A stretch of DNA of 64,000 nt from a virus (IMGVR_UViG_3300035199_000798:1-64000); one strand, 5' to 3'. Shown: positions 18,585 to 64,000, numbered from the stretch's first letter. Program-made: numbers and translations. Notes: generated by a model not told the origin, from the sequence alone.

Positions 18585-18884
18585 ATGATGAGAGAAAGAA
18601 TTAATCGAGGTGACGCCGCCTTTGAAGCCAAATTGACTGAGCTTAAAAAGCGCTTTGCTGGGGTTAAGAAAAGTGCGGAGAGCGAAACTGCCGTTAATGT
18701 AAACAAGCAAGATTTAAAAGATGGCTACGTTACTTTTTGGTCCGATAACAGCGACATTACTCAATTGATTAACCGCAGCGCCGGCTATATTGTGTCCGTC
18801 ATGGATTGCGGAGAAACTGTGCGCATTCGAATGTCGCGCAAGGGATTCCGTAGTTGCTATCACGCTTTCAAGTTGTCAAAATAA
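18585..18884 (+). CDS. Hypothetical protein
   Basis: A 99-residue protein with a Lys/Glu-rich helical N-terminus and a beta-like C-terminal half (DGYVTFWSDNSDITQLI, then SVMDCGETVRIRMSRKGF). TAGGAGGGG lies before two adjacent ATG codons, so the start may be 18585 or 18588. It is sandwiched between SSB and UvsX genes, which suggests a replication-linked role by context only. Confidence 0.65.
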   Translation: MMRERINRGDAAFEAKLTELKKRFAGVKKSAESETAVNVNKQDLKDGYVTFWSDNSDITQLINRSAGYIVSVMDCGETVRIRMSRKGFRSCYHAFKLSK

Positions 18885-18895
18885 AGGAAACCACA

Positions 18896-20005
18896 ATGCG
18901 TAAACGAAATACTGGTAAGGCTGGCCAACTGTCTATTGATGACATGCGCAAGCTTATTAATAAAAAAGCTGGGCTCAATGTGGCTCACAACCTCACAAAA
19001 GAGAATCCAACCGAGGTTAAACAGTGGATTCCAACGGGCTCGCGGTGGCTGGATAGCATTATCTGCCGCGGCCAAAGCGCCGGTATTCCTGTCGGCAAAG
19101 TGGTTGAGGTGGCCGGATTAGAATCAACCGGCAAGTCCTACATGGCGGCGCAGGTTGCCGCAAACGCTCAAAAGATGGGGATTGACGTAATCTATTTTGA
19201 TTCGGAATCGGCGATTGACCCCACATTTTTAGAACGGTCAGGCTGCTCTCTCGATAATGTTCTCTACGTACAGGCGACGTCCGTTGAATTTGTCTTGGAG
19301 ACTATTGAAGAGTTGCTCGGCTCCAACGACAGTCAGATGTTGTTTATCTGGGATTCGCTTGCGCTCACTCCTGCCATCTCGGACATCGAGGGGGACTTCA
19401 ACCCCCAGTCCTCAATGGCGGTAAAGGCTCGCATTCTCGCGAAGGGGATGTCTAAGCTGACGGTGCCAATTGCTAATAGCCAGTCGACGTTCTTAGTGTT
19501 GAATCAGCTTAAGACCAACATTACAAGATCTCCCTCGGAGGCGCTGACAACCCCTTATATGACTCCTGGCGGCAAAGCCATGATCTATGCTTATTCGTTG
19601 CGCATCTGGCTCACGGGACGCAAAGCTAAAGCCTCGTTTGTTACGGACGACAAAGGATTCCGCATAGGTTCCGAAGTCAAAGTAAAACTAGAGAAATCTA
19701 GATTTGGAACCCAAGGACGTCAGTGCAATTTTAAGATTCTCTGGGGCGATGAGATCGGAATTCAGGACGAAGAGAGTTGGTTTGAGGCCATCAAGTCTTC
19801 AGACCACATTAAACAAGCCGGTGCCTGGTTCGAGCTAGTCTATGCGGATGGCACTACCGAGAAGTTTCAAGCTTCCCGTTGGTCGGAGAAGCTGCAGAAT
19901 GAAAAATTCCGAAAAAGAGTCTTGACAATCATGGACGAAGAGGTTATAATGAAGTTCGATAAACGGATTGGCGAAGCCAACGAATTTTACGAAGAAGAGG
20001 AATAA
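18896..20005 (+). CDS. uvsX: UvsX/RecA-like recombinase
   Basis: A 369-residue RecA-fold ATPase. Walker A is GLESTGKS (near residue 79), then DVIYFDSESAIDPTFLERSG, and Walker B-like LFIWDSLALTP; STFLVLNQLKTNI corresponds to the L2-proximal region. The acidic end (FYEEEE) is also typical. It promotes strand invasion for recombination-dependent replication together with the gp32-like SSB. I chose the ATG at 18896 because AAAGGAAA precedes it; an upstream frame from 18854 overlaps the prior gene and has no site. Confidence 0.9.
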   Translation: MRKRNTGKAGQLSIDDMRKLINKKAGLNVAHNLTKENPTEVKQWIPTGSRWLDSIICRGQSAGIPVGKVVEVAGLESTGKSYMAAQVAANAQKMGIDVIYFDSESAIDPTFLERSGCSLDNVLYVQATSVEFVLETIEELLGSNDSQMLFIWDSLALTPAISDIEGDFNPQSSMAVKARILAKGMSKLTVPIANSQSTFLVLNQLKTNITRSPSEALTTPYMTPGGKAMIYAYSLRIWLTGRKAKASFVTDDKGFRIGSEVKVKLEKSRFGTQGRQCNFKILWGDEIGIQDEESWFEAIKSSDHIKQAGAWFELVYADGTTEKFQASRWSEKLQNEKFRKRVLTIMDEEVIMKFDKRIGEANEFYEEEE

Positions 20006-40708: not shown

Positions 40709-42286
40709 ATGAAGCTTTTTAAAGATTCGGTTGATTTGCGTGGCAAGTTAGAAAACGGCATACGCATCGTAGCAGAAAATGTAGCGTCCACGCTTGGCCC
40801 CAAAGGGCGCAGCGTCATCCTCCACCAAAAACACAAGAACCCCATTATCACGAAAGACGGCGTAACCGTCGCCCGATTTGTCGAACTGACAGACCCCATT
40901 GAAAACACAGGCGCTCAGATTGTAAAGCAAGCGGCCGAGAAAACTAACCAAGAGGCCGGCGATGGCACCACCACCACGACGGTGCTTACCTACGCAATGT
41001 ACCGGGACGCCCAAAAATACTTAGTTGCTGGCGCTCCACCAACAGAACTACGGCGTGGGATGGAAAAGGCGGTTGAGTGGCTCGTGGCACAAGTTGAAGC
41101 AGACGCCACCCCCATTCAATCACTAGAGGATATCGAAAACATCGCTACCATTTCTGCCAATGGAGACACAGTCATTGGAAAGATGATTGCAAAGGCCGTA
41201 GATTTGGCTGGCAAAGACGGCTCAATTAAAATTGAGGAAGCGCGCTCCCTTGAGACCACATTAGACTTAGTGGAAGGGTTTCGGTTCGACGCAGGCTATC
41301 TCGCGACAGCTTTTATTAACGATGAGATGCGAGGGATTGTTAGCCACGAAGATCCTCTTATCCTTGTTACAGATGAGAAAATTGAAACCGTAGAAGAGAT
41401 GATGCCCGCCTTAGAACTCGCTGCTCGCGAAGCGCGCCCTTTTATCATCGTCGCTGAGAACGTGGAAGGTCAAGCGCTGGCTGCTCTAATCATGAACGCT
41501 ATGCGCGGCACGCTCCGTGTCGCGGCCATCAAAGCCCCACGCTATGGAGAAGAGCGACGCAACATTCTTAAGGATTTGGCACTTTCCGTGGGCGCAACCC
41601 TCATCAGCCGTGAAAACGGGGTGAGACTTAAAGAAGTCAAGTTGAACCATTTGGGGGAGGCCAAAAGCATTGAATCTGGTAAAAGAGGCACCACAATTGT
41701 CGGCGGCACCGGAAGCCTAGAAGACGTAGAAGGTGAAATTGAAAAGCTTAAAGCAATCCTTCAGGACACCGAGAATATGCATGAGTGCGAAAAGATTCAG
41801 GAGCGCATAACTCGTTTGTCGTCAGGGGTGTCAATTATTCGCGTCGGCGCAGCGACAGAGATTGAAATGGTAGAAAAGCGGCATCGCATCGAAGACGCCC
41901 TGGAAGCGGTCAAGTCGGCCCAGCTAGAGGGAATCCTTCCCGGTGGGGGCGCATTCCTCGTACAAAAATCGAAACATCTCTTCCAGAAGGCCAAGAGCAC
42001 TGCTGATAACGAGTGGGAAGAGTTAGGGATTAAGATTGTGGAGAATGCGGTCCGCGAGCCCCTGCGCCAAATGGCTCGCAACGCAGGCCAATCAGGGGAT
42101 TTAATTCTTTCAAAGCTTCTTCACCGACGCACGGGAGAAGGGTACAACTTTAAAACCAGTAAAATGACCAACTTACTTGACGCAGGGGTGATCGACCCAG
42201 CGCGGGTAACGCGCTGTGCGCTGCAGAACGCCGTGAGCGTTGCGGGAACCTTAATCACTTCTAATTACGCAATTGTCGAGGAGTAG
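40709..42286 (+). CDS. groEL: GroEL chaperonin (phage-encoded, divergent)
   Basis: A 525-residue chaperonin (E. coli 548). ASTLGPKGRSVILHQ and ITKDGVTVARFV match the ATP-binding equatorial domain; QEAGDGTTTTTVLTYAM contains the DGTTT nucleotide motif with catalytic Asp; LEGILPGGGAFLVQ and the closing NLLDAGVIDPARVTRCALQN complete it. The apical domain is present (residues about 180-370). The C-terminal GGM repeat is lacking. It probably folds capsid or other phage proteins with the GroES-like protein at 27635. Confidence 0.93.
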   Translation: MKLFKDSVDLRGKLENGIRIVAENVASTLGPKGRSVILHQKHKNPIITKDGVTVARFVELTDPIENTGAQIVKQAAEKTNQEAGDGTTTTTVLTYAMYRDAQKYLVAGAPPTELRRGMEKAVEWLVAQVEADATPIQSLEDIENIATISANGDTVIGKMIAKAVDLAGKDGSIKIEEARSLETTLDLVEGFRFDAGYLATAFINDEMRGIVSHEDPLILVTDEKIETVEEMMPALELAAREARPFIIVAENVEGQALAALIMNAMRGTLRVAAIKAPRYGEERRNILKDLALSVGATLISRENGVRLKEVKLNHLGEAKSIESGKRGTTIVGGTGSLEDVEGEIEKLKAILQDTENMHECEKIQERITRLSSGVSIIRVGAATEIEMVEKRHRIEDALEAVKSAQLEGILPGGGAFLVQKSKHLFQKAKSTADNEWEELGIKIVENAVREPLRQMARNAGQSGDLILSKLLHRRTGEGYNFKTSKMTNLLDAGVIDPARVTRCALQNAVSVAGTLITSNYAIVEE

Positions 42287-43032: not shown

Positions 43033-43239
43033 ATGAAAGTTGGGGACCTAGTCTGGGTGCCTGATGGCACAATTGGGGATCGAGGATCCTATACGGTGGA
43101 TATGCGCGGACCGCTACTGGCACTCGTCAAAGCGCTTAAGCCTCAAAAGCTGCGCATTCTTGCTAATGTCGACGGCACCCAAGCGTCCCTTCTCGTGCGC
43201 CAGGAAGATGTATACGATATAGGAGATCTGTATGATTAG
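43033..43239 (+). CDS. MKVGDLV-family mini-protein
   Basis: A 68-residue protein beginning MKVGDLVWVPDGTIG, then beta-rich. This start marks a family of small beta-barrel-like (SH3/KOW-like) proteins spread through the right part of the window, most in an array at 59869-61671. Here the copy is isolated. The start lies one base after the preceding stop. Function unknown. Confidence 0.68.
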   Translation: MKVGDLVWVPDGTIGDRGSYTVDMRGPLLALVKALKPQKLRILANVDGTQASLLVRQEDVYDIGDLYD

Positions 43240-47590: not shown

Positions 47591-48217
47591 ATGGATTACT
47601 CTCTCCCTGAAGAACACTTCCAGCAAAATATTGAAATTATTATTAATGACGTGCTCAAAGAGGAGGCCATTGCGTTGTTCATTACAGATGTTATAGTCAA
47701 AGAAGAGCAAGAGTTGTCCCTTATAGAGTGCATGCTGTGTCGCGACGAAGAATGTGCCCCTCTCTCCGCGAACGGCTCTGGAATTGCGGATGCGCTGTTC
47801 ACCGCATTGGTGCGCCACTTCTCGGCGGAATTTTTGTGTTTGAGAAAAGTAGCTTTCGAGGATTTCAACCTCAAGGCCGACTTCAAGGATAGCGTCAAGG
47901 TCCATCGTTCTGATGCCACGGTGGAGGTGACTTTAGTCTTGAAGTCTTCCAATACACGCCGTCTTTATTTTCGCGCCAGTTCGCGGTCGCTGGTGTCAGC
48001 CGTTATCGAAGCTGTCCGTAAATCTATTCAATTTTTAATTAATTGTGAAAAGACGGTAACAGAATTATATTTACATATTGAGGAGTTGCGAGAAAAAGGT
48101 CGATGGCGCGCCGAAGAAGTACGGGTATTAAAATTAGCCGATGTCGTGCGCGTGGCAAACTTTGAAGAAACAATTAAACGAGTAAAATGGCAAACAAAAA
48201 AACACCTGGACTCCTAA
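47591..48217 (+). CDS. LeuA regulatory-domain-like protein
   Basis: A 208-residue protein. The segment ANGSGIADALFTALVRHFSA, with FEDFNLKADFKDSVKVHRSD and YFRASSRSLVSAVIEAVRKS, has the pattern of the C-terminal allosteric/dimerisation domain of 2-isopropylmalate synthase: G-x-G-P/I-x-D-A, a strand with shared V-H-R-S-D-A, then G-x-S-x-D/S-x-x-x-A-x-x-x-A. No catalytic TIM barrel is present. It may bind a small molecule such as leucine, or reuse the fold. It overlaps the next gene by 31 bases. Confidence 0.55.
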   Translation: MDYSLPEEHFQQNIEIIINDVLKEEAIALFITDVIVKEEQELSLIECMLCRDEECAPLSANGSGIADALFTALVRHFSAEFLCLRKVAFEDFNLKADFKDSVKVHRSDATVEVTLVLKSSNTRRLYFRASSRSLVSAVIEAVRKSIQFLINCEKTVTELYLHIEELREKGRWRAEEVRVLKLADVVRVANFEETIKRVKWQTKKHLDS

Positions 48218-48387
48218 AAATTGGAGACTTAGTAGTGTATAATTATCCTCCTAAGTTTATGAATTTAGGAGATGCGCTTCCTTATGGAATCGTAATGTCC
48301 ACGGACGGCCTCTTTGCCAAGGTGGTCTGGTCAGACGGCGAAATATATTTAGAGAGCATCGTGGACTTGAAACTCATAAACAACTAA
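48187..48387 (+). CDS. MKVGDLV-family mini-protein (variant)
   Basis: A 66-residue protein: LLKIGDLVVYNYPPKFMN, YGIVMSTDGLFAKVVWSDGE and a C-terminal ESIVDLKLI. It has the family order: hydrophobic GDLV strand, GIV strand, VxWxDG strand pair, and a final LxxI segment, as in small SH3-like barrels. It starts inside the end of the preceding gene. Confidence 0.65.
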   Translation: MANKKTPGLLKIGDLVVYNYPPKFMNLGDALPYGIVMSTDGLFAKVVWSDGEIYLESIVDLKLINN

Positions 48388-51068: not shown

Positions 51069-51080
51069 GGAGGCATGAAA

Positions 51081-51269
51081 GTGAAAGTAGGCACTTTAGT
51101 AAAAGAGAAAGAAGGCCGCCGATTTGGCGGCGTGATTGTAGAGGTGACGCCCAGCGACATCGCTCCGCTGGAAGCGTCCGACTTTGTACGAGTACAGTGG
51201 GCCGATGGCGTCAACACAGTTTACAAGAAGACTTTTTTAGAAGAGATCCCACTTTACCCGGATTATTAA
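51081..51269 (+). CDS. MKVGDLV-family mini-protein
   Basis: A 62-residue protein from the GTG at 51081, giving MKVGTLVKEKEGRR, then GGVIVEV, VRVQWADGVNTVY and a final LEEIPLY: the family order GTLV, GVIV, V-x-W-x-D-G, L-E-x-I. The GGAGG is 7 bases before this GTG but one base before the ATG at 51075, so GTG fits better. However, the promoter places transcription initiation at about 51075, so a leaderless start at the ATG is possible. Function unknown. Confidence 0.65.
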   Translation: MKVGTLVKEKEGRRFGGVIVEVTPSDIAPLEASDFVRVQWADGVNTVYKKTFLEEIPLYPDY

Positions 51270-51525: not shown

Positions 51526-51741
51526 ATGAAAAAATTATTGATTATTCTGGGCCTTGTAGCCCTTCTATCCCCGGGCTGCATTTTGGTGTCGGAGAGTGGA
51601 ACCTATACCTACGTGGATGCGTGGGGGTGCGAGGTTGATGTCATCGAGAACTATTATACCGGAGAAGTGTGCGAAGAGACGTGGTGCTATGACGAAAATT
51701 ATGAGGAGTGGTACCTTTACGATGAATACTGCTATTATTAA
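51526..51741 (+). CDS. Cys-rich lipoprotein 1 of tandem triplet
   Basis: A 71-residue protein: MKKLLIILGLVALLSPGC is a signal with a lipobox-like SPGC. The mature part has five further Cys and the C-terminal motif CEETWCYDENYEEW and CYY. Lipid attachment would place it at the inner face of the outer membrane or in the inner membrane. The ATG of the second gene lies 20 bases before this stop. The three genes look like successive duplicates. Exclusion of other phages is a plausible role, not shown. Confidence 0.75.
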   Translation: MKKLLIILGLVALLSPGCILVSESGTYTYVDAWGCEVDVIENYYTGEVCEETWCYDENYEEWYLYDEYCYY

Positions 51742-52015
51742 GCTGTTTCTCGCGGCCGCACTTCTGGCCGGATGTGGTTCGGGAGATATGAACGACTACA
51801 CCCCTTATAGGCCAACTTTGGGGGGCGACTACTACCTTCAGTATGAAGCGTGTGGCCACGCACCTCCGCACCTTTTAGAGGATGCGTTGGTCTGCGAGTC
51901 CGCATGTTGTATCTGGGCTTTTGAGAGGCTCAACGTGAATTTAACCTGTGAGGAGACGTGGTGTTGCCATGCCGATGTGTGTGAGTGGTTTTTTCATTAT
52001 GAAGAGTGTTATTAA
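51722..52015 (+). CDS. Cys-rich lipoprotein 2 of tandem triplet
   Basis: A 97-residue protein: MNTAIIKLFLAAALLAGC has a classical LAGC lipobox. The mature part holds CESACCIW and then CEETWCCHADVCEWF and EECY. The CEETWC block matches copy 1; CESACC matches CNSKCC of copy 3. Its start lies in the codons of the EYCYY end of copy 1, and its own EECY end holds the start of copy 3. Confidence 0.75.
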   Translation: MNTAIIKLFLAAALLAGCGSGDMNDYTPYRPTLGGDYYLQYEACGHAPPHLLEDALVCESACCIWAFERLNVNLTCEETWCCHADVCEWFFHYEECY

Positions 52016-52241
52016 AATATTGTTGCTCCTGTTGCTAGGGGCGTGTAGTGTTGTGTGGCCTCCATCGGACGATTGTAATCCCAACGCCACCATTCCATAT
52101 ACTCAAGACGAAGTGGGCGAACCTCATTGCAATAGTAAATGTTGCGAATTCGTCGTCTACGGGAGCGTGGAAACGTGTCATGAAATGTGGTGTTATGACG
52201 GAAAATGTTCTTGGGAGTTGTACAATTCTTTCTGTTATTGA
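51999..52241 (+). CDS. Cys-rich lipoprotein 3 of tandem triplet
   Basis: An 80-residue protein: MKSVIKILLLLLLGAC has an LGAC lipobox. Mature part: HCNSKCCEF, then CHEMWCYDGKCSWELYNSFC and a final Tyr. It overlaps copy 2 by 17 bases. It is followed 12 bases later by a member of the MKVGDLV family. Confidence 0.75.
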   Translation: MKSVIKILLLLLLGACSVVWPPSDDCNPNATIPYTQDEVGEPHCNSKCCEFVVYGSVETCHEMWCYDGKCSWELYNSFCY

Positions 52242-52253
52242 GGCTCGGCCTTC

Positions 52254-52493
52254 ATGAGAGTAGGAGATTTGGTAAGGGTTGATTTTGGCAAAGACCGAAC
52301 ATACTTAGGGTTAATCGCGGGGCACGTGGCTCCCGTAGAGCCCTTGGCGCTCGACCGCGAGTGGCCCATCCAATACGACTTTGAGGTACTGGTGTTCACT
52401 ACAGCGCATGGGAGGGGAATTGTTCCCGTCTGTAAAAACGAAATAGTGGAAATACTGAACGAAAGACAAGAAAAGGTAGAAGAAAACACGTGA
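52254..52493 (+). CDS. MKVGDLV-family mini-protein
   Basis: A 79-residue protein beginning MRVGDLVRVDFGKDRTYLGL, with a FEVLVFTTAHGRGIVPVC strand segment and IVEILNERQ at the end. It fits the family pattern (GDLV, GLI, a hydrophobic strand, VEIL) with a longer C-terminus. Confidence 0.68.
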   Translation: MRVGDLVRVDFGKDRTYLGLIAGHVAPVEPLALDREWPIQYDFEVLVFTTAHGRGIVPVCKNEIVEILNERQEKVEENT

Positions 52494-52896: not shown

Positions 52897-53079
52897 ATGC
52901 ATACTATATTACGCGGCGACTTGGTGGAAATCCTGTCTAACCCGGGCTGCCCAACTCTCTTAGGGCTCGTCATGAACGTTCATGCGTTGTCCGGGAAAAC
53001 ATTCTTTGAGGTGCGCTATACCGCAGAGGGGCATAGCGATACTCGGTGGATTAATGAAACATTTCTCAGAAAGGCTTGA
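52897..53079 (+). CDS. MKVGDLV-family mini-protein (variant)
   Basis: A 60-residue protein: MHTILRGDLVEILSNPGCPT, then GLVMNVHALSG, FFEVRYTAEGHSDTRWINE and FLRKA. It has the family order GDLV, GLV, V-x-Y/W, W-x-x-E-x-F. No Shine-Dalgarno sequence precedes the ATG; the region directly upstream is the 3' stem of the structured RNA, which could control access. Confidence 0.6.
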   Translation: MHTILRGDLVEILSNPGCPTLLGLVMNVHALSGKTFFEVRYTAEGHSDTRWINETFLRKA

Positions 53080-53814: not shown

Positions 53815-55098
53815 TTGAGTAGTAAAAAAGACAAGCGTTTTATGGTTTGCTCGTTTTGTGGGAAGGACCAGCACGATGTGAACAAGCTTATCGCGGGGTT
53901 CAATGTTACAATCTGTAATGAATGCATCGGGCTATGTAATGATATTCTTGATGACGAAGAGCAAAAAGATCGCGCACTACGCTACCGAAACGAACCCCTC
54001 CCAGTTCCCAAAGACATCAAGCGAACGCTGGACGATTACGTAATCGGGCAGTCTGCCGCGAAGAAGATTTTGGCCGTTGCGGTGTACAACCACTACAAGC
54101 GTGTTACGAAACTAGCCAAGAACCAAAAAAGCGAAACTACGCTCCAAAAAAGTAATATTCTTCTGACTGGGCCAACTGGTTGCGGTAAAACGCTGCTGGC
54201 TCAAACATTAGCCGAGGTACTCAATGTCCCATTTGCGGTCGTTGATGCCACCAACCTTACGGAGGCAGGCTATGTTGGGGAAGACGTGGAGAACATCTTA
54301 GCCCGGCTGCTTGAAGCCGCCGACTATGACATCAAAGCTGCCGAACGGGGCATTATTTATATTGACGAGATAGATAAAATCGCACGGAAGTCGGAAGGTA
54401 CCAGCATTACTCGCGATGTTTCTGGGGAAGGCGTACAGCAGGCTCTTCTTAAGATTATTGAAGGAACGGTGGCAAATGTGCCGCCCAAGGGTGGCCGCAA
54501 GCATCCCAACGCGGAGTCTATCCCCGTCGACACTACCAACATCTTGTTCATTTGCGGCGGCGCTTTTGTGGGACTCGACCAAATTATCTCTAATCGCAAG
54601 GGAGAAAAGGGACTGGGGTTTGGAGCGAAGCAGGAAAAGCGCGAAGACCTCAGTGTGAGCGAGTTGCTTCAGCACGTTCAGCCGAACGATTTGATGAAGT
54701 TCGGGCTCATTCCAGAGTTTGTTGGCCGCATCCCCGTGCTGGCATCTCTTCATGACCTAAGCAAAGAGATGCTCGTTCAGATCATTGGGGAGCCCAAGAA
54801 CTCTTTGCTCGCCCAATACAAGGAGTTGATTCGATTAGATGGCGTGAAGCTCACCCTTACGGAGGGTGCCATTGAGGGGATCGCTGATAAAGCCTTAGAC
54901 CTTGGCGCAGGAGCGCGAGGGCTGCGCGCAGTGATGGAGCAGGCATTGTTGGATATCATGTATGAGTTACCATCGGCTAGCAAGACACAAGAGGTGATTG
55001 TGACCCGCGAAACTATAATGAATCACGCGCCTCCCCTCTGTGTCTTACGCCGCCCAGAGGTAGAACCAAACGACACCGACACGGCACAGGAGGCGTAA
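53815..55098 (+). CDS. clpX: ClpX ATPase
   Basis: A 427-residue AAA+ unfoldase (E. coli 424). It starts at TTG after AGAGGAGG. The N-terminal zinc-binding domain has CSFCGK and CNECIGLC. The AAA+ domain has Walker [12 protein letters not shown] (near residue 119), [17 protein letters not shown], Walker [13 protein letters not shown], and [24 protein letters not shown] and [11 protein letters not shown] give the sensor 2 region. The pore loop GYVG is present. It unfolds proteins for ClpP, encoded 3 bases downstream. Confidence 0.95.
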
Positions 55099-55101
55099 AC
55101 G

Positions 55102-55683
55102 ATGCCCTATTATCCCCCCACCATTATTGAACAAACCGCCAAAGGCGAGAGAGCCTATGATATTTATTCACGCCTCCTGGTAGACCGAATCATCTTTTTA
55201 GGCACCCCCATCGATGACACAGTAGCCAACTCTGTCATCGCCCAGTTATTGTTTCTTGACCAAGATTCTGATAAAGACATTCTTCTTTATATTAACTCTC
55301 CTGGTGGGAGCGTCACTGCGGGCCTAGGCATACTCGATACAATGAACTACGTCAAAGCCGACGTTGCCACCATTTGCATTGGCCAAGCCGCATCAATGGG
55401 CGCTCTACTTTTGTGTTCGGGAGCCAAAGGCAAACGCAGCATCCTGCCCAATTCCCGCGTCCTCATTCACCAGCCCCTCGGCGGGACACGCGGACAAGCC
55501 AGCGATATTGAGATTCATGCGAACGAGATTATTCGCTTGAAGAAGCGTCTCAATGGGATCATGGCCGACGCGACTGGAAAGGACATCGAACAAATCAAGC
55601 TCGACACCGACCGCGACAATATCATGGATGCGGACGAAGCCGTAGCCTATGGGCTTGTTGACGAAATAATTCAAAACAATTAA
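55102..55683 (+). CDS. clpP: ClpP protease
   Basis: A 193-residue canonical Clp[21 protein letters not shown] is the usual N-terminus; [34 protein letters not shown] with the nucleophile Ser, [20 protein letters not shown] with the His, and [19 protein letters not shown] with the Asp. It forms the degradation chamber with ClpX. The phage also has a divergent ClpP-like gene at 38560. Confidence 0.96.
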
Positions 55684-56504: not shown

Positions 56505-57557
56505 ATGGCAATCGATTTCAAATCTTTCCGCGAATGCGCCCCTTACGTTCTCAAGTCAGCAAAACCTATTTTGCTTCGCGGTCGCCATGGTATTGGCAAG
56601 TCTGAAGTGGTGTATCAAATCGCTCAAGACTTGGAGCTTCCTGTAGTAGAGCGCCGCGCCTCTCAGATGACTGAAGGCGATTTGCTGGGGATGCCTTCTC
56701 CTGAAATGATTGAAGTCAATGGCGAGCAAGCGTCCGTGTTCCGTCCCTTCGCGTGGTTCATTCGCGCCTGTACGGAGCCATGCGTTTTGTTCTTCGATGA
56801 GGTTGATCGTGCGGTGTTGGAAGTGCGCCAAGGCTTGTTTGAGTTGACGGACAGCCGCAAACTGGCCGGGTGGACGCTTCATCCTGGCACACGTGTTATC
56901 TCTGCTGTGAACGGTGGGGAACATGGCGACCAATATCAAGTGAACGAAATGGACCCGGCAGAGTTGGACCGTTACACCGTGTTTGATGTACAGCCTACCG
57001 TAGAGGATTGGCTGACATGGGCCAAAGACAACGTTGATACTCTGATTTGGGACTTCATTAACCAGAATCGCACTCACTTGGAGCACGCAGAGGACTTTGA
57101 GCCTAACAAGGTATACCCCTCGCGCCGCTCTTGGAAGCGCTTCAACGATTGCGTGGTTGACGCTGGTTTGCTCACCGAAGAGCCTACCCCTGTTTTGTTT
57201 AATCTGGGCTGCGGCTTTGTGGGGTTTGAAGCTGCCGTTGCCTTCAACGATTTTGTTCAAACTTACGACCGCCAGGTCACGGTAGAGGACATCGTTGATA
57301 AGGGTGCTGTTGAAAAGACTGAAAAGTTCGACATCAACGAGCACGCGGCACTCGTCGAGAAGATGGATGCATCGGACTTGTTCAAGGATGACTTGACCGA
57401 GGAGCAGGCGGATAACGTTGGTGCTTACTTTGTAACGTTGCCATCGGAAATCGCCATGAAACTGTGGGAGTCTGTCGCTCGCTCGGAGAACCAAACTAAT
57501 ATCATTGCTCTCCATAAGCGTACGCACGAGTACTTGGTGACGATTCTGACTGGCTAA
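56505..57557 (+). CDS. MoxR-like AAA+ ATPase
   Basis: A 350-residue AAA+ protein. KPILLRGRHGIGKSEVVYQI holds Walker A (near residue 29), VVERRASQMTEGDLLGMPSP the region after it, and CVLFFDEVDRAVLEVRQGLF Walker B (near residue 98); RVISAVNGG is sensor 1 and DPAELDRYTVF holds the arginine finger region. Phage and bacterial MoxR ATPases act as chaperones for metal insertion or assembly, together with a VWA protein, here encoded directly downstream under its own promoter. The target is unknown. Confidence 0.85.
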   Translation: MAIDFKSFRECAPYVLKSAKPILLRGRHGIGKSEVVYQIAQDLELPVVERRASQMTEGDLLGMPSPEMIEVNGEQASVFRPFAWFIRACTEPCVLFFDEVDRAVLEVRQGLFELTDSRKLAGWTLHPGTRVISAVNGGEHGDQYQVNEMDPAELDRYTVFDVQPTVEDWLTWAKDNVDTLIWDFINQNRTHLEHAEDFEPNKVYPSRRSWKRFNDCVVDAGLLTEEPTPVLFNLGCGFVGFEAAVAFNDFVQTYDRQVTVEDIVDKGAVEKTEKFDINEHAALVEKMDASDLFKDDLTEEQADNVGAYFVTLPSEIAMKLWESVARSENQTNIIALHKRTHEYLVTILTG

Positions 57558-59196: not shown

Positions 59197-59520
59197 ATGG
59201 AACCTTTAGTCGTTAGTGTCCCCCCTTCAATCGTGCCAATGCCTTGGAAAAACAAGACATATGCGGTGAGCGGAGGCACGTGGCTAGAGGTTCCTGATGG
59301 TACCACCCTTGCCACGCTGCCACCCTATATGGTCTTTAAGGGGTATGAAATCCCCGAGGAATCTTCCCCTAAGCATTGGACCGTGGAGGGTTCTAAGGGC
59401 AAAGTCTACGTCGTGAAAGTGTCGAATGAGGGAGCTTGGAGTTGTACATGTCCGGGCTATAGCTTCCGTCGACGATGCAAGCACGTTGAGAGCATGCGCC
59501 TGGACTATAAGGTTGCCTAG
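59197..59520 (+). CDS. SWIM zinc finger protein
   Basis: A 107-residue protein after AGAAAGGAA. The C-terminal third has WSCTCPGYSFRRRCKHVESM, which fits the SWIM motif (CxCx(n)CxH). The N-terminal part is beta-like with many Pro and Val, and EGSKGKVYVVKVSNEGAW leads into the finger. SWIM domains bind DNA or proteins. The role here is unknown. Confidence 0.8.
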   Translation: MEPLVVSVPPSIVPMPWKNKTYAVSGGTWLEVPDGTTLATLPPYMVFKGYEIPEESSPKHWTVEGSKGKVYVVKVSNEGAWSCTCPGYSFRRRCKHVESMRLDYKVA

Positions 59521-59686: not shown

Positions 59687-59830
59687 ATGTTTGAAATGAT
59701 TGGAATGATTGTGCTGTGGTTGGCTGTACTCGGAGTGGTGTGTCTTTGGACCGACTACCGTCGCGAACGCCTACAGAAAATAATAGACAAGAGAGAGAAA
59801 AAAGTTATTGACAAAGAAGAGGATATGTGA
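59687..59830 (+). CDS. Small membrane protein with charged tail
   Basis: A 47-residue ORF after TTGGAGG. MFEMIGMIVLWLAVLGVVCL is a membrane helix; then a basic/acidic tail (RRERLQKIIDKREKK). Its last bases overlap the promoter for the MKVGDLV array. It resembles the protein at 58993 in layout. Confidence 0.6.
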   Translation: MFEMIGMIVLWLAVLGVVCLWTDYRRERLQKIIDKREKKVIDKEEDM

Positions 59831-59836
59831 GATAAT
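59808..59836 (+). promoter_or_regulatory. Sigma70-type promoter for the MKVGDLV array
   Basis: TTGACA, 17 bases, GATAAT in a TGTGAGATAATA context. It lies 32 bases before the first gene of the ten-gene array and inside the end of the previous small gene. Confidence 0.7.
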
Positions 59837-59868: not shown

Positions 59869-60051
59869 ATGACACCAGGAACTCTCGTAAGAACCAAACG
59901 ACCCCGGCTCGGCGTACCACGTGGAACCTACGGCTTGATCGTTAGGTCGGCCAAAACCGACAGCAACGCTATCATCCACGAACTTCAACTGATAGGCGAC
60001 GACCTACGCAAGATTCTACGGATGGAACGCGACTTGGAGATTGTACAATGA
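59869..60051 (+). CDS. MKVGDLV array, copy 1 (divergent)
   Basis: A 60-residue protein: MTPGTLVRTKRPRLGVPRGT, YGLIVRS and an end MERDLEIVQ. It opens the overlapping array after AAAAGGAA. The family order is kept (GTLV, GLIV, LEIV). Its end DLEIVQ overlaps the start of copy 2 by 4 bases. Confidence 0.65.
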   Translation: MTPGTLVRTKRPRLGVPRGTYGLIVRSAKTDSNAIIHELQLIGDDLRKILRMERDLEIVQ

Positions 60052-60233
60052 AAGTAGGTGATTTGGTCAGCTTAGACGCGGGGCGCGACATTACACTAAC
60101 GGGTATCGTCTTGAAGATCGACAAGAGTCGCAAAGTGGGCAAGCATGCCTTCCCCTGTTTTGTTGCGTGGAGCACTGGCGAGGCGGATTGGATGCGGGAA
60201 GAGTTCTTGGAGATTATAAATGCAAGTGGGTGA
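60048..60233 (+). CDS. MKVGDLV array, copy 2
   Basis: A 61-residue protein: MKVGDLVSLDAGRDITLTGI, then HAFPCFVAWSTGEADWMREE, and FLEIINASG. The pattern is GDLV, GIV, V-x-W-s-x-G-e, W-x-r-e-x-LEII. Its last codons (NASG and stop) are the first codons of copy 3 in another frame; the 'LEII' codons carry the GGAG site for that gene. Confidence 0.72.
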   Translation: MKVGDLVSLDAGRDITLTGIVLKIDKSRKVGKHAFPCFVAWSTGEADWMREEFLEIINASG

Positions 60234-60384
60234 CTTGGTAAGGTTCCCCAACAATGGCATGGTTGGCCTCGTTGTAAAGGTGGCGATGATCGATCAACAA
60301 CGGTGGTACAATATAGCCTGGGCAGACGGCCACACCGGAAATCGTTTGGCTAAAGAGTTGGAGGTCGTTAATGAAAGTCGGTGA
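60220..60384 (+). CDS. MKVGDLV array, copy 3
   Basis: A 54-residue protein: MQVGDLVRFPNNGMVGLVVK, NIAWADGHTGNRLAKE and LEVVNESR. It overlaps copy 2 by 14 bases and copy 4 by 14 bases; the LEVV codons provide GGAGG for copy 4. This gene is too short for usual ORF cut-offs but clearly belongs to the family. Confidence 0.72.
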   Translation: MQVGDLVRFPNNGMVGLVVKVAMIDQQRWYNIAWADGHTGNRLAKELEVVNESR

Positions 60385-60586
60385 CTTAGTGAAATTTGTC
60401 GAGCCCACTCATCGCGGCACCGAAGACTATGTTGTTCGCGAGGATACGTCGGGAATCGTTCTGGGCTTTCACGAGACGAAAGGGAGAGTCAAGGTGCGCT
60501 GGTTTACGATGGGGGCAACTCCGACTCCTGTTAACATCGGCTATTGGCCGTGGGGAAGCTTGAAGGTATACAGTGCAGCGCAATGA
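60371..60586 (+). CDS. MKVGDLV array, copy 4
   Basis: A 71-residue protein: MKVGDLVKFVEPTHRGTEDY, SGIVLGFHETKGRVKVRWFT, then a Pro/Trp-rich segment and SLKVYSAAQ. The core strands are as in the other copies; the middle loop is longer. It overlaps both neighbours by 14 bases. Confidence 0.7.
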   Translation: MKVGDLVKFVEPTHRGTEDYVVREDTSGIVLGFHETKGRVKVRWFTMGATPTPVNIGYWPWGSLKVYSAAQ

Positions 60587-60812
60587 ACTTTGGCCCGAAG
60601 TGGGCGATTTATTGATTCAGAAATCCGATGGAAAAAAGCACACAGGCTTGATTACCAAGATAGAGGAACGCCCAGGCCTCGGTCGAAGTGGCGTTTATGT
60701 GGAGTGGGCCGCAGCGTGTCCGTTCGATTACAACTCGATTTATGGTTATTCATGCGTCAACATCCACAACCAAAATCACATTTTCACCTTAGTCAAGGGA
60801 GAAAAAGAATAG
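60573..60812 (+). CDS. MKVGDLV array, copy 5 (extended)
   Basis: A 79-residue protein starting at GTG: MQRNELWPEVGDLLIQKSDG, HTGLITKIEERPGLGRSGVY and VEWAAACPF. The VGDLL core is preceded by an 8-residue extension. It overlaps copy 4 by 14 bases and copy 6 by one base. Confidence 0.65.
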   Translation: MQRNELWPEVGDLLIQKSDGKKHTGLITKIEERPGLGRSGVYVEWAAACPFDYNSIYGYSCVNIHNQNHIFTLVKGEKE

Positions 60813-61006
60813 TGCGAGTCGGTGATTTGGTAACGATAAAGCCAGCGAAGCGGGGCGTATATATGATTACGAGTCTCGATGCTCACGATTTACACCACGG
60901 GGGAAGACTTCGCAATGCGGTTACGGTGGTGTGTCTAGACGATTCTACGTCTTCACCAATGCCCATGGGTAAAAAATGGATTGAGGTTATAAATGCAAGT
61001 CGGTGA
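60812..61006 (+). CDS. MKVGDLV array, copy 6
   Basis: A 64-residue protein starting at GTG: MRVGDLVTIKPAKRGVYMIT, RNAVTVVCLDDSTSS and KKWIEVINASR. It lacks the GIV strand sequence but keeps the GDLV start and the IEVIN end, whose codons carry GAGG for copy 7. The NASR end overlaps copy 7 by 14 bases. Confidence 0.68.
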   Translation: MRVGDLVTIKPAKRGVYMITSLDAHDLHHGGRLRNAVTVVCLDDSTSSPMPMGKKWIEVINASR

Positions 61007-61166
61007 TAAACTGGTGGCGGTTGAAAAAGAAAATGTTACGCAGAGTTACATCCCCTATGGATGCATCTGTGAGTACGTGGCCACCTTTGATCGTTATTTC
61101 TGTGTGCTGTACGAGGGGAGAGAAGTGCTCATCAATAAACAATTGTTAGCACCGGTCGCAGAGTGA
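60993..61166 (+). CDS. MKVGDLV array, copy 7 (divergent)
   Basis: A 57-residue protein: MQVGDKLVAVEKENVTQSYI, CICEYVATFDRYFCVLYEGR and LLAPVAE. It starts as the other copies (MQVGD) but the following strands differ, with three Cys. It overlaps copy 6 by 14 bases and copy 8 by 4. Confidence 0.62.
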   Translation: MQVGDKLVAVEKENVTQSYIPYGCICEYVATFDRYFCVLYEGREVLINKQLLAPVAE

Positions 61167-61321
61167 AAGTCGGTGACTTGGTAAAGTGTACATTGGAGGA
61201 AGCTCCTACGTATGGAATTGTGGTGCGAACGGGCAAATGGAATCTCGCTGTGATGATTGATAATTATCTTCGTTGGGTGAGTGTCGAATACCTGGAGAAG
61301 CTGAACGATGCAAACGATTAA
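61163..61321 (+). CDS. MKVGDLV array, copy 8
   Basis: A 52-residue protein starting at GTG: MKVGDLVKCTLEEAPTYGIV, VRTGKWNLAVMIDNYLRWVS and VEYLEKLNDAND. This is the smallest copy and shows the basic fold unit: GDLV, GIV, an A-V strand, W-V-s-x-e-x-LE. It overlaps copy 9 by 14 bases. Confidence 0.68.
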   Translation: MKVGDLVKCTLEEAPTYGIVVRTGKWNLAVMIDNYLRWVSVEYLEKLNDAND

Positions 61322-61487
61322 GATTGGAGACTTGGTAAGGTTCTGCCAACAACCAGACGCCGCTGTTGGCCTCGTCGTTGAAGTCGATCCACGCTTGAAC
61401 CGCATCGGAGTGGCCTGGAACTTCTTAGACGGGCGAATCGGATGGCAGCACAGGGTTGACGTGGAGGTCATCAGTGCGAGTGGGTGA
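61308..61487 (+). CDS. MKVGDLV array, copy 9
   Basis: A 59-residue protein: MQTIKIGDLVRFCQQPDAAV, GLVVEVDPRLNRIGVAWNFL, then GRIGWQHRVDVEVISASG. It keeps all family strands and the VEVI end with the GGAGG for copy 10. It overlaps both neighbours by 14 bases. Confidence 0.7.
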   Translation: MQTIKIGDLVRFCQQPDAAVGLVVEVDPRLNRIGVAWNFLDGRIGWQHRVDVEVISASG

Positions 61488-61671
61488 TTTGGTCAGATAT
61501 AAGCACGACACCAGAGAGGTCGGCGTGATTATTGCCTCGGCTGAGCCAACAAACCAGCTACCCAAACGACACAAGGTATTTTGGTGTGCGTTGCCTGACG
61601 ATGAACCAGCGGATTATCAGCATTCGGATTGGATGCGCGAAGTGGGGTTAGAGGTTATCTCAGCCACGTGA
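61474..61671 (+). CDS. MKVGDLV array, copy 10 (last)
   Basis: A 65-residue protein starting at GTG: MRVGDLVRYKHDTREVGVII, HKVFWCALPDDEPADY, HSDWMREVGLEVISAT. It ends the array without overlapping another gene; its LEVIS end still resembles the coupling sequence. The following 230 bases carry two promoters and a candidate small RNA. Confidence 0.7.
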   Translation: MRVGDLVRYKHDTREVGVIIASAEPTNQLPKRHKVFWCALPDDEPADYQHSDWMREVGLEVISAT

Positions 61672-61702: not shown

Positions 61703-61731
61703 TTGACAAACCATCAAATATTTGAGATAAT
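61703..61731 (+). promoter_or_regulatory. Sigma70-type promoter for the candidate small RNA
   Basis: TTGACA, 17 bases, GATAAT in the TTTGAGATAATATAA context. No sizeable ORF follows before a terminator, so it probably drives a non-coding RNA. Confidence 0.72.
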
Positions 61732-61846: not shown

Positions 61847-61875
61847 TTGACTTTCTATGCGAAATATGAGATAAT
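61847..61875 (+). promoter_or_regulatory. Sigma70-type promoter with dyad around the -10
   Basis: TTGACT, 17 bases, GATAAT. CTTTCTAT (61851-61858) and ATAGAAAG (61879-61886) form an 8-base inverted repeat flanking the -10, possibly an operator. It lies 28 bases before the next gene. Confidence 0.72.
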
Positions 61876-62374: not shown

Positions 62375-62403
62375 TTGACATAGACCGCATTCTATGAGAT
62401 AAT
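62375..62403 (+). promoter_or_regulatory. Sigma70-type promoter with dyad around the -10
   Basis: TTGACA, 17 bases, GATAAT. TTCTATG (62390-62396) and CATAGAA (62407-62413) flank the -10, as in the promoters at 61847 and 63059. Confidence 0.72.
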
Positions 62404-63058: not shown

Positions 63059-63087
63059 TTGACAAACGTTGCTTTCTATGAGATAAT
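63059..63087 (+). promoter_or_regulatory. Sigma70-type promoter with dyad around the -10
   Basis: TTGACA, 17 bases, GATAAT in a TTTCTATGAGATAATACATATAGAAA-type context: TTTCTAT (63073-63079) and ATAGAAA (63092-63098) flank the -10. It lies 33 bases before the next gene. Confidence 0.72.
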
Positions 63088-63908: not shown

Positions 63909-64000
63909 ATGAATAGTTTACAAGATATTGAAAACACACCCCCGCAACGACTAAAAGTTGGTGATTTAGTTGTGAGGACATACGGAGAAGGCCAACGCCC
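63909..64000 (+). CDS. MKVGDLV-family protein with MNSLQDI N-terminus (cut by window edge)
   Basis: A partial ORF with 30 visible residues: MNSLQDIENTPPQRL, then KVGDLVVRTYGEG. The first part is shared with the gene at 63348, the second with the array family, so it looks like a fusion of the two. TATAGGAG precedes the ATG. The rest lies outside the window. Confidence 0.65.
   Translation, partial: MNSLQDIENTPPQRLKVGDLVVRTYGEGQR

Follow-up and report, generated by a model that had tools for sequence, protein, structure and literature searches.

Overlapping genes for predicted small barrel proteins in a marine phage resemble a string of exchangeable cassettes

The window analysed here comprises 64,000 nucleotides (nt) of a 65,221-bp IMG/VR virus record (IMGVR_UViG_3300035199_000798), and its positions 59869-61671 on the plus strand carry ten small open reading frames (ORFs) arranged head to tail. 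The virus is a contractile-type tailed phage, and its genes encode a tail sheath, DNA polymerase, DnaB-like helicase, ribonucleotide reductase and endolysin, together with GroEL, a UvsX-like recombinase, ClpX-like and ClpP proteins, and an AAA/VWA pair. The ten ORFs, designated a1 to a10, encode proteins of 52-79 amino acids and overlap successively by 4, 14, 14, 14, 1, 14, 4, 14 and 14 nt, exactly as an initial annotation of this DNA had described. A promoter-like site of the sigma-70 type (TTGACA-N17-GATAAT with a TGn element; 59808-59836, plus strand) is located 32 nt before the first ORF and agrees with the consensus at 11 of 12 positions, a consensus match only. The next promoter-like sites of the TTGACA type downstream of it start at 61703, 61847, 62375 and 63059, all past the last array ORF. 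Because a promoter-like site precedes a1 and the following sites come after a10, the array looks like one operon, i.e. a single transcription unit.

All ten genes, hereafter also called cassettes, lie on the plus strand. The first of them, a1 (59869-60051; 60 amino acids), is divergent, starts with MTPGTLV and has homologues with 38-48% identity within arrays of five loci from the comparison set introduced below (L093, L099, L116, L100 and L005). It is overlapped by 4 nt by a2 (60048-60233; 61 amino acids), for which a cassette with 75% identity was found in locus L014. Overlaps of 14 nt connect a2 to a3 (60220-60384; 54 amino acids), a3 to a4 (60371-60586; 71 amino acids) and a4 to a5 (60573-60812; 79 amino acids, GTG start). 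Next, a6 (60812-61006; 64 amino acids, GTG start) overlaps a5 by 1 nt, a7 (60993-61166; 57 amino acids) overlaps a6 by 14 nt, and a8 (61163-61321; 52 amino acids, GTG start) overlaps a7 by 4 nt. The last two genes, a9 (61308-61487; 59 amino acids, with a cassette 58% identical in L014) and a10 (61474-61671; 65 amino acids, GTG start), each overlap their predecessor by 14 nt. The MKVGDLV start ascribed to the proteins by the initial annotation is absent from a1 and a5, and a7 reads MQVGDKL. The a5 protein begins with VQRNELWPEVGDLL and represents a subfamily with invariant GDL, GY and NIHN; homologues of a5 are found in the canonical arrays of L014 and L035. Since clear homologues of both a1 and a5 sit within canonical arrays, we assigned both proteins to the family.

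The canonical junction between two genes is a joint of ~33 nt with the consensus TGGAGGTnATnA(A/G)TGAAAGTCGGTGATTTGGTAA, which contains the tail and stop codon of one gene as well as the Shine-Dalgarno (SD) sequence, start codon and MKVGDLV codons of the next. The consensus was built on 394 unique 14-nt joints from related contigs and shows a strongly conserved block between positions -12 and +20 around the start: T G G A G G T n A T n A (A/G) T G A A A G T C G G T G A T T T G G T A A. For instance, the a2/a3 joint (60208-60240, plus strand) has the DNA sequence TTGGAGATTATAAATGCAAGTGGGTGACTTGGTAAGG, which reads LEIINASG-stop in the a2 frame and MQVGDLVR in the a3 frame, with GGAG six to ten bases upstream of the ATG. 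Three other canonical joints were recognized on the same strand from their sequence and the 394-joint consensus, at a3/a4 (60359-60391), a6/a7 (60981-61013) and a9/a10 (61462-61494). The overlap measures 14 nt because the Gly-Asp codons of the family, GGT-GAY, hold an out-of-frame TGA. This canonical TGA is used at only four of the six junctions in the window that overlap by 14 nt; at a4/a5 and a8/a9 the same length is reached via other stop triplets, located in CAATGA (instead of the canonical GGTGA) and in GATTAA, respectively.

The codons at the end of family members depend on what follows them. A tail of the NESR type was found in 93% of the 767 members with a 14-nt neighbour after them and in 6% of the 225 members that have no ORF starting close behind them, and the corresponding proportions for an SD-like motif in the last codons are 85% and 13%. 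These differences indicate that the terminal residues serve the DNA, where they encode the next start, and are not required by the protein. Together with the a2/a3 sequence and the 394 joints, they bear out the previous suggestion that one stretch of DNA codes for a gene end plus the start and ribosome site of the next gene. Within the first 24 nt, the start block has stops in both other frames in 95% of the members with a 14-nt overlap. The codon GGT is used for the start-block Gly in 60% of members without an upstream ORF as compared to 39% at internal Gly-Asp, an excess that movement of cassettes between overlapped and free sites would predict. Joint-like tails that continue into genes outside the family occur as well, and these genes encode a GIY-YIG protein (L013), a gp32-like protein (L126) and a SWIM-type protein (L105). 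No in-frame double-domain fusions with two full VGDLV motifs were found among the family members examined. Three joints folded as DNA gave differing weak structures (0 to -3 kcal/mol) and thus no consistent single-strand structure.

An exact-pattern scan of IMG/VR retrieved 34 loci with a degenerate 31-mer and 91 loci with a 24-mer, and searches with related proteins added more. The resulting comparison set includes 229 loci and 2.8 Mb, almost all from marine IMG/VR contigs. Altogether it contains 1,724 members that are distinct in their first 120 nt, with 11 to 38 members per record in 20 records. The overlap equals exactly 14 nt in 769 of 1,011 distinct close neighbour pairs, which exceeds chance; the arrays and overlaps, whose absence from relatives the initial annotation had named as evidence against its proposal, thus occur in many of them. 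For overlaps of at least 0 nt, 826 junctions are in the phase of 14, 135 are in the phase of 4 and one is in the third phase, which cannot yield an overlap of two distinct frames. Among 50,697 INPHARED phage records, no blastn match to the array region and no tblastn match to three members were detected, and a 37-nt joint gave only chance-level partial matches there, none covering 80% of its length. In 84,980 prokaryote genomes the joint pattern was found at 50 loci, mostly as isolated chance matches, and arrays were encountered only in seven loci of metagenome-assembled genomes (MAGs), some of which are likely virus contigs binned with bacteria. A partial array is present in L084 (CP070664.1, 2136001-2144000), part of a 2.85-Mb record titled as a candidate division WOR-3 chromosome; it is either a prophage or the product of a viral contig having been merged with the MAG. 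Members also occur at two places more than 25 kb apart (L063 and L082) in a Methylococcaceae-binned contig of 305,838 bp (NHDW01000006.1), which may be a large phage.

The window also contains the six additional members listed previously, with some corrections, all on the plus strand. Those at 43033-43239, 48187-48387 and 52254-52493 stand as given. The member assigned a start at 51081 has an in-frame ATG at 51075 (51075-51269), and that at 52897-53079 is a weak, probable member without a match to the family profile at E ≤ 0.01. The sixth, at 63909-64000, extends beyond the window to 64130 in the full record and has an N-terminal extension; it ends in LEVINESK, and there it shares 14 nt with the start of a gene of no relation to the family.

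Comparison of contigs revealed where DNA similarity begins and ends. Relative to the family start, homology blocks mostly begin at -20 to +9 and end at 0 to +29. Around the arrays, family starts have 39% of the homology ends within 30 nt of them versus 9.5% expected (4.1-fold), whereas other SD-bearing gene starts, taken as a control, account for 10.5% versus 7.9% expected (1.3-fold). A short homologous sequence is present at the junctions where similarity starts and stops. Loci L006 and L008 have identical aligned flanks and differ by exactly one cassette, which is present in L006, absent from L008 and bounded by a 20-nt direct repeat, ATGAAAGTCGGTGATTTGGT. Additional cassette differences at joints, comprising exact gains and losses as well as replacements, were observed in L032 and L128. 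The order of cassettes also varies: L014 contains relatives of the 63909 member, a9, a2, a3 and a5, in this order (58, 57, 75, 42 and 49% identity, respectively), while the window has a2, a3, a5, a9 and 63909.

In relatives identified via the AAA gene at 56505, the arrays recur in the equivalent location, following the AAA/VWA genes. In the locus pairs L147/L151 and L148/L152 the AAA protein is 92% identical, and when both pairs were pooled, counterparts in the other locus were found for 3 of 26 cassettes, as against 16 of the 26 remaining downstream ORFs and 21 of the 26 ORFs on the upstream side (cassettes versus other downstream ORFs, Fisher p = 4e-4). The gene that follows 63909 through the 14-nt junction has a homologue with 65% identity in L100, which is a solitary gene preceded by a promoter of the type seen in the window; a cassette was therefore joined to an ordinary gene in one lineage.

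The initial annotation explained the array mainly by tandem duplication of one gene via unequal crossing-over, after which the copies would have diverged. All copies do have the fold and the two ends in common, and a few close paralogues reside on the same contig, such as two near-identical copies in L003. However, a same-contig partner with at least 50% identity exists for just 38 of 1,107 members (12 of the 38 being adjacent), while 581 have such a partner in another contig. The closest partner belongs to another contig for 1,022 of 1,058 members, partly through near-identical orthologous contigs in the set. Irrespective of these contigs, the low identity within a contig stands by itself, with a median of 36% for the best same-contig match and most members lacking a detectable same-contig relative at E 1e-3. 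Since the window cassettes moreover recur permuted in L014, we regard duplication as an improbable main route. Overlapping starts and stops are frequent in phages, and a compact genome might favour them with no special joint involved; the conserved ends LEVINESR and MKVGDLV would then overlap alike by chance, and a conserved VGD start is indeed predisposed to a 14-nt overlap, because GGT-GAY always holds TGA. Such an account leaves a tail that the protein does not require, the enrichment of GGT at starts without any overlap, the excess of homology breaks at family starts over other SD-bearing starts and the exact cassette difference unexplained, and we consider it quite unlikely.

The uniform joint, the modular arrays and the precise one-cassette differences could also point to a site-specific system, in which an integrase or transposase uses the joint as its site in the manner of an integron. 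Tyrosine recombinases (PF00589) were detected in none of 20 array-bearing records, not proven complete, as compared with 14 of 14 positive controls, and serine recombinases (PF00239) were likewise found in none of these possibly incomplete records. A host or novel recombinase could act instead. The joints differ between copies and have no common strand structure, and in our opinion a site-specific system is very unlikely. Finally, short repeats could have produced chimeric joins during metagenome assembly and hence false gains and losses of cassettes. The evidence comes wholly from metagenomic contigs, the joint is a repeat, and no INPHARED isolate has a relative; on the other hand, more than 80 contigs from many samples have intact ORFs with low ratios of nonsynonymous to synonymous substitutions (dN/dS), and the arrays of related viruses occupy the same place downstream of the AAA/VWA genes. 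An artefact of this kind is hardly credible as the general explanation.

We consider it likely that the array is an integrase-free, integron-like string of interchangeable cassettes, which have a protein-coding joint and are shuffled by recombination at the joints. Each cassette is one gene for a predicted small SH3/KOW-like barrel, and its last codons (L-E-V-I-N/S-E-S-R-stop) carry the SD sequence GGAGG and the out-of-frame start codon of the next gene. As its ribosome site comes from the preceding cassette and is supplied onward to the following one, a cassette would need no promoter or leader of its own, and translation is presumably coupled at the joints. Any two cassettes recombined at the joint should give intact, translatable neighbours, because the joint holds the SD sequence, the start codon and stops in both alternative frames. 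Cassettes would be inserted, removed and reordered through homologous or annealing recombination between these short repeats, for which the UvsX system of the phage is the probable agent, and close relatives would consequently come to differ greatly at this locus. The promoter upstream may drive expression early in infection.

General recombination is favoured because a UvsX-like recombinase is encoded in 20 of 20 array-bearing records examined and tyrosine and serine recombinases in none. In the window, this candidate enzyme is located at 18854-20005 on the plus strand (phrog_97, E 1.2e-53). Several observations weigh against the shuffling model or its enzyme. Exact runs shared with the best partner joint of the same locus have a median of 18 nt and an upper quartile of 23 nt, and the reported homology lengths are 31-34 bp for RecA and 23-27 for Red-beta (PMC3945230). 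Joint runs are thus below the RecA figure and at the edge of the Red-beta range, so UvsX may not be the enzyme, and an annealing protein of the phage or host is an alternative. The difference between L006 and L008 might reflect strain collapse in assembly, and the turnover contrast is somewhat inflated, as short proteins match less easily than the longer control ORFs. In addition, the four joints extracted from the window share runs of only 3-9 nt, and recent shuffling is therefore not visible in the window virus itself. A stronger version of the shuffling model, in which marine phages have a dedicated integrase-free gene-shuffling system with a double-coding joint of ~33 nt selected to keep recombinants in frame and translated, and with a cassette pool common to many viruses, seems to us evenly poised between true and false.

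The cassette proteins are predicted to be small SH3/KOW-like barrels with five strands, in line with the fold suggested previously. The AlphaFold2 model of a3 is a five-stranded barrel with a predicted local distance difference test score (pLDDT) of 95.8, and that of the divergent a5 has related barrel strands plus helices (pLDDT 87.8). Compared with PDB, the family profile matched the KOW parts of Spt5 (the best match, E 5e-6 over 29 positions) and NusG. Foldseek found SH3-like barrels in PDB with template modelling (TM) scores of 0.7-0.8, including HspQ, PetP, CAP-Gly and the PcrA/UvrD Tudor domain, none of them at E ≤ 0.001, while six matches at E ≤ 0.001 were obtained among viral models (best TM 0.94). 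The best viral matches (A0A516MB52, A0A516M778, A0A516MBH7 and A0A516LBZ6 in BFVD) share one accession series, and these entries probably represent one set of uncultured virus genomes outside the phage collection searched. No Pfam family scored above its cut-off for the ten window proteins, and none matched more than one of 105 members. The KOW profile PF00467 stayed below cut-off, with one of 105 members at E 0.003, so the Spt5 and NusG matches denote likeness only. The best family for a3 is phrog_1690 (E 5e-7), which matched 4 of 105 members at E ≤ 0.001.

Orthologous cassettes have pooled dN/dS values of 0.16, 0.13 and 0.12 in three identity bands. These low values indicate that the copies are real, maintained genes and that variety comes from cassette content, not from fast change within cassettes. 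Positive selection within cassettes was rejected, as no pair has dN/dS above 1; the low ratios contradict a diversification of the set by selection within copies. As to function, our leading but tentative guess is that host proteins or nucleic acid machinery are the targets of the barrels, and that by means of the array the virus could rapidly adapt its repertoire to hosts or defences. Parallels to barrels that bind RNA polymerase or ribosomes or act as protease adaptors are leads only. The best barrel match in Foldseek is HspQ, a specificity factor of Lon, and ClpX/ClpP genes lie upstream of the array; an adaptor role is a mere lead.

Integron arrays are strings of single-gene cassettes, mostly promoterless, that are expressed from an upstream promoter and can be added, dropped or rearranged at a shared joint. 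The phage array resembles such IntI/attC arrays in that its modules, each a single gene, are likewise acquired, deleted and rearranged. In contrast to integrons, it has no integrase detected in 20 records and no attC-like fold; its joint is protein-coding, overlaps stop and start and holds the ribosome site, and its cassettes all share one fold. Translational coupling at ATGA or TAATG junctions is similar in having the SD sequence inside the upstream gene and an out-of-frame start in its last codons, but the phage overlap is 14 nt instead of 1-4 nt, is kept over ~1,000 junctions and is tied to cassette exchange. NusG/Spt5 KOW, HspQ, PcrA/UvrD Tudor and PetP share the predicted fold of the array proteins, which nevertheless have no significant Foldseek match in PDB and no covering Pfam family, and phrog_1690 covers only a corner of their family. 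Closest in mechanism are short, conserved boundary sequences at which phages have been proposed to exchange modules, and which could not be identified at most borders (PMC3029335). Unlike these, the joint described here is repeated tens of times per genome, is read in two frames and strings individual members of one gene family together as arrays. In the literature searched we found no paper with MKVGDLV and no description of such arrays, an absence that is no proof of novelty. Whether the array, likened to an integron yet distinct, deserves the name of a system of its own is a question on which we are equally divided.

Several other features occur in the neighbourhood of the array. The four sites downstream of it (61703-61731, 61847-61875, 62375-62403 and 63059-63087) are near-identical copies of TTGACA-N17-TGnGATAAT, one of them with TTGACT, and precede small genes. 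The same type precedes the homologous gene in L100 near position 960, and these sites probably form one promoter class of the window virus group. A small SWIM zinc-finger protein adjoins the array (59197-59520), and another is joined directly to a cassette tail (L105:11187-11495). A short way upstream of the array, 53815-55683 encodes a ClpX-like ATPase with the ClpX zinc finger beside a ClpP protease, followed by AAA and VWA/DUF2201 genes. A phage-encoded chaperonin of the GroEL type lies at 40709-42286 (phrog_5725, E 1.7e-136). At about 51526-52241, three adjacent small Cys-rich proteins have lipoprotein-like N-termini (ending in SPGC, LLAGC and LLGAC) and are mutually similar, with CEETWC or CHEMWC motifs, which makes them another tandem set of paralogues.

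Recombination homology built into overlapping reading frames would provide a concrete and testable answer to the question of how individual small genes can pass between phages while operons stay intact. With up to 38 copies per record, such arrays would also be a source of part of the unexplained small-gene diversity in uncultured marine viruses. The family offers ~1,700 tiny folded domains that could be screened for host-takeover or anti-defence activity, and its joint may be a natural model for building coding cassettes that can be stacked.

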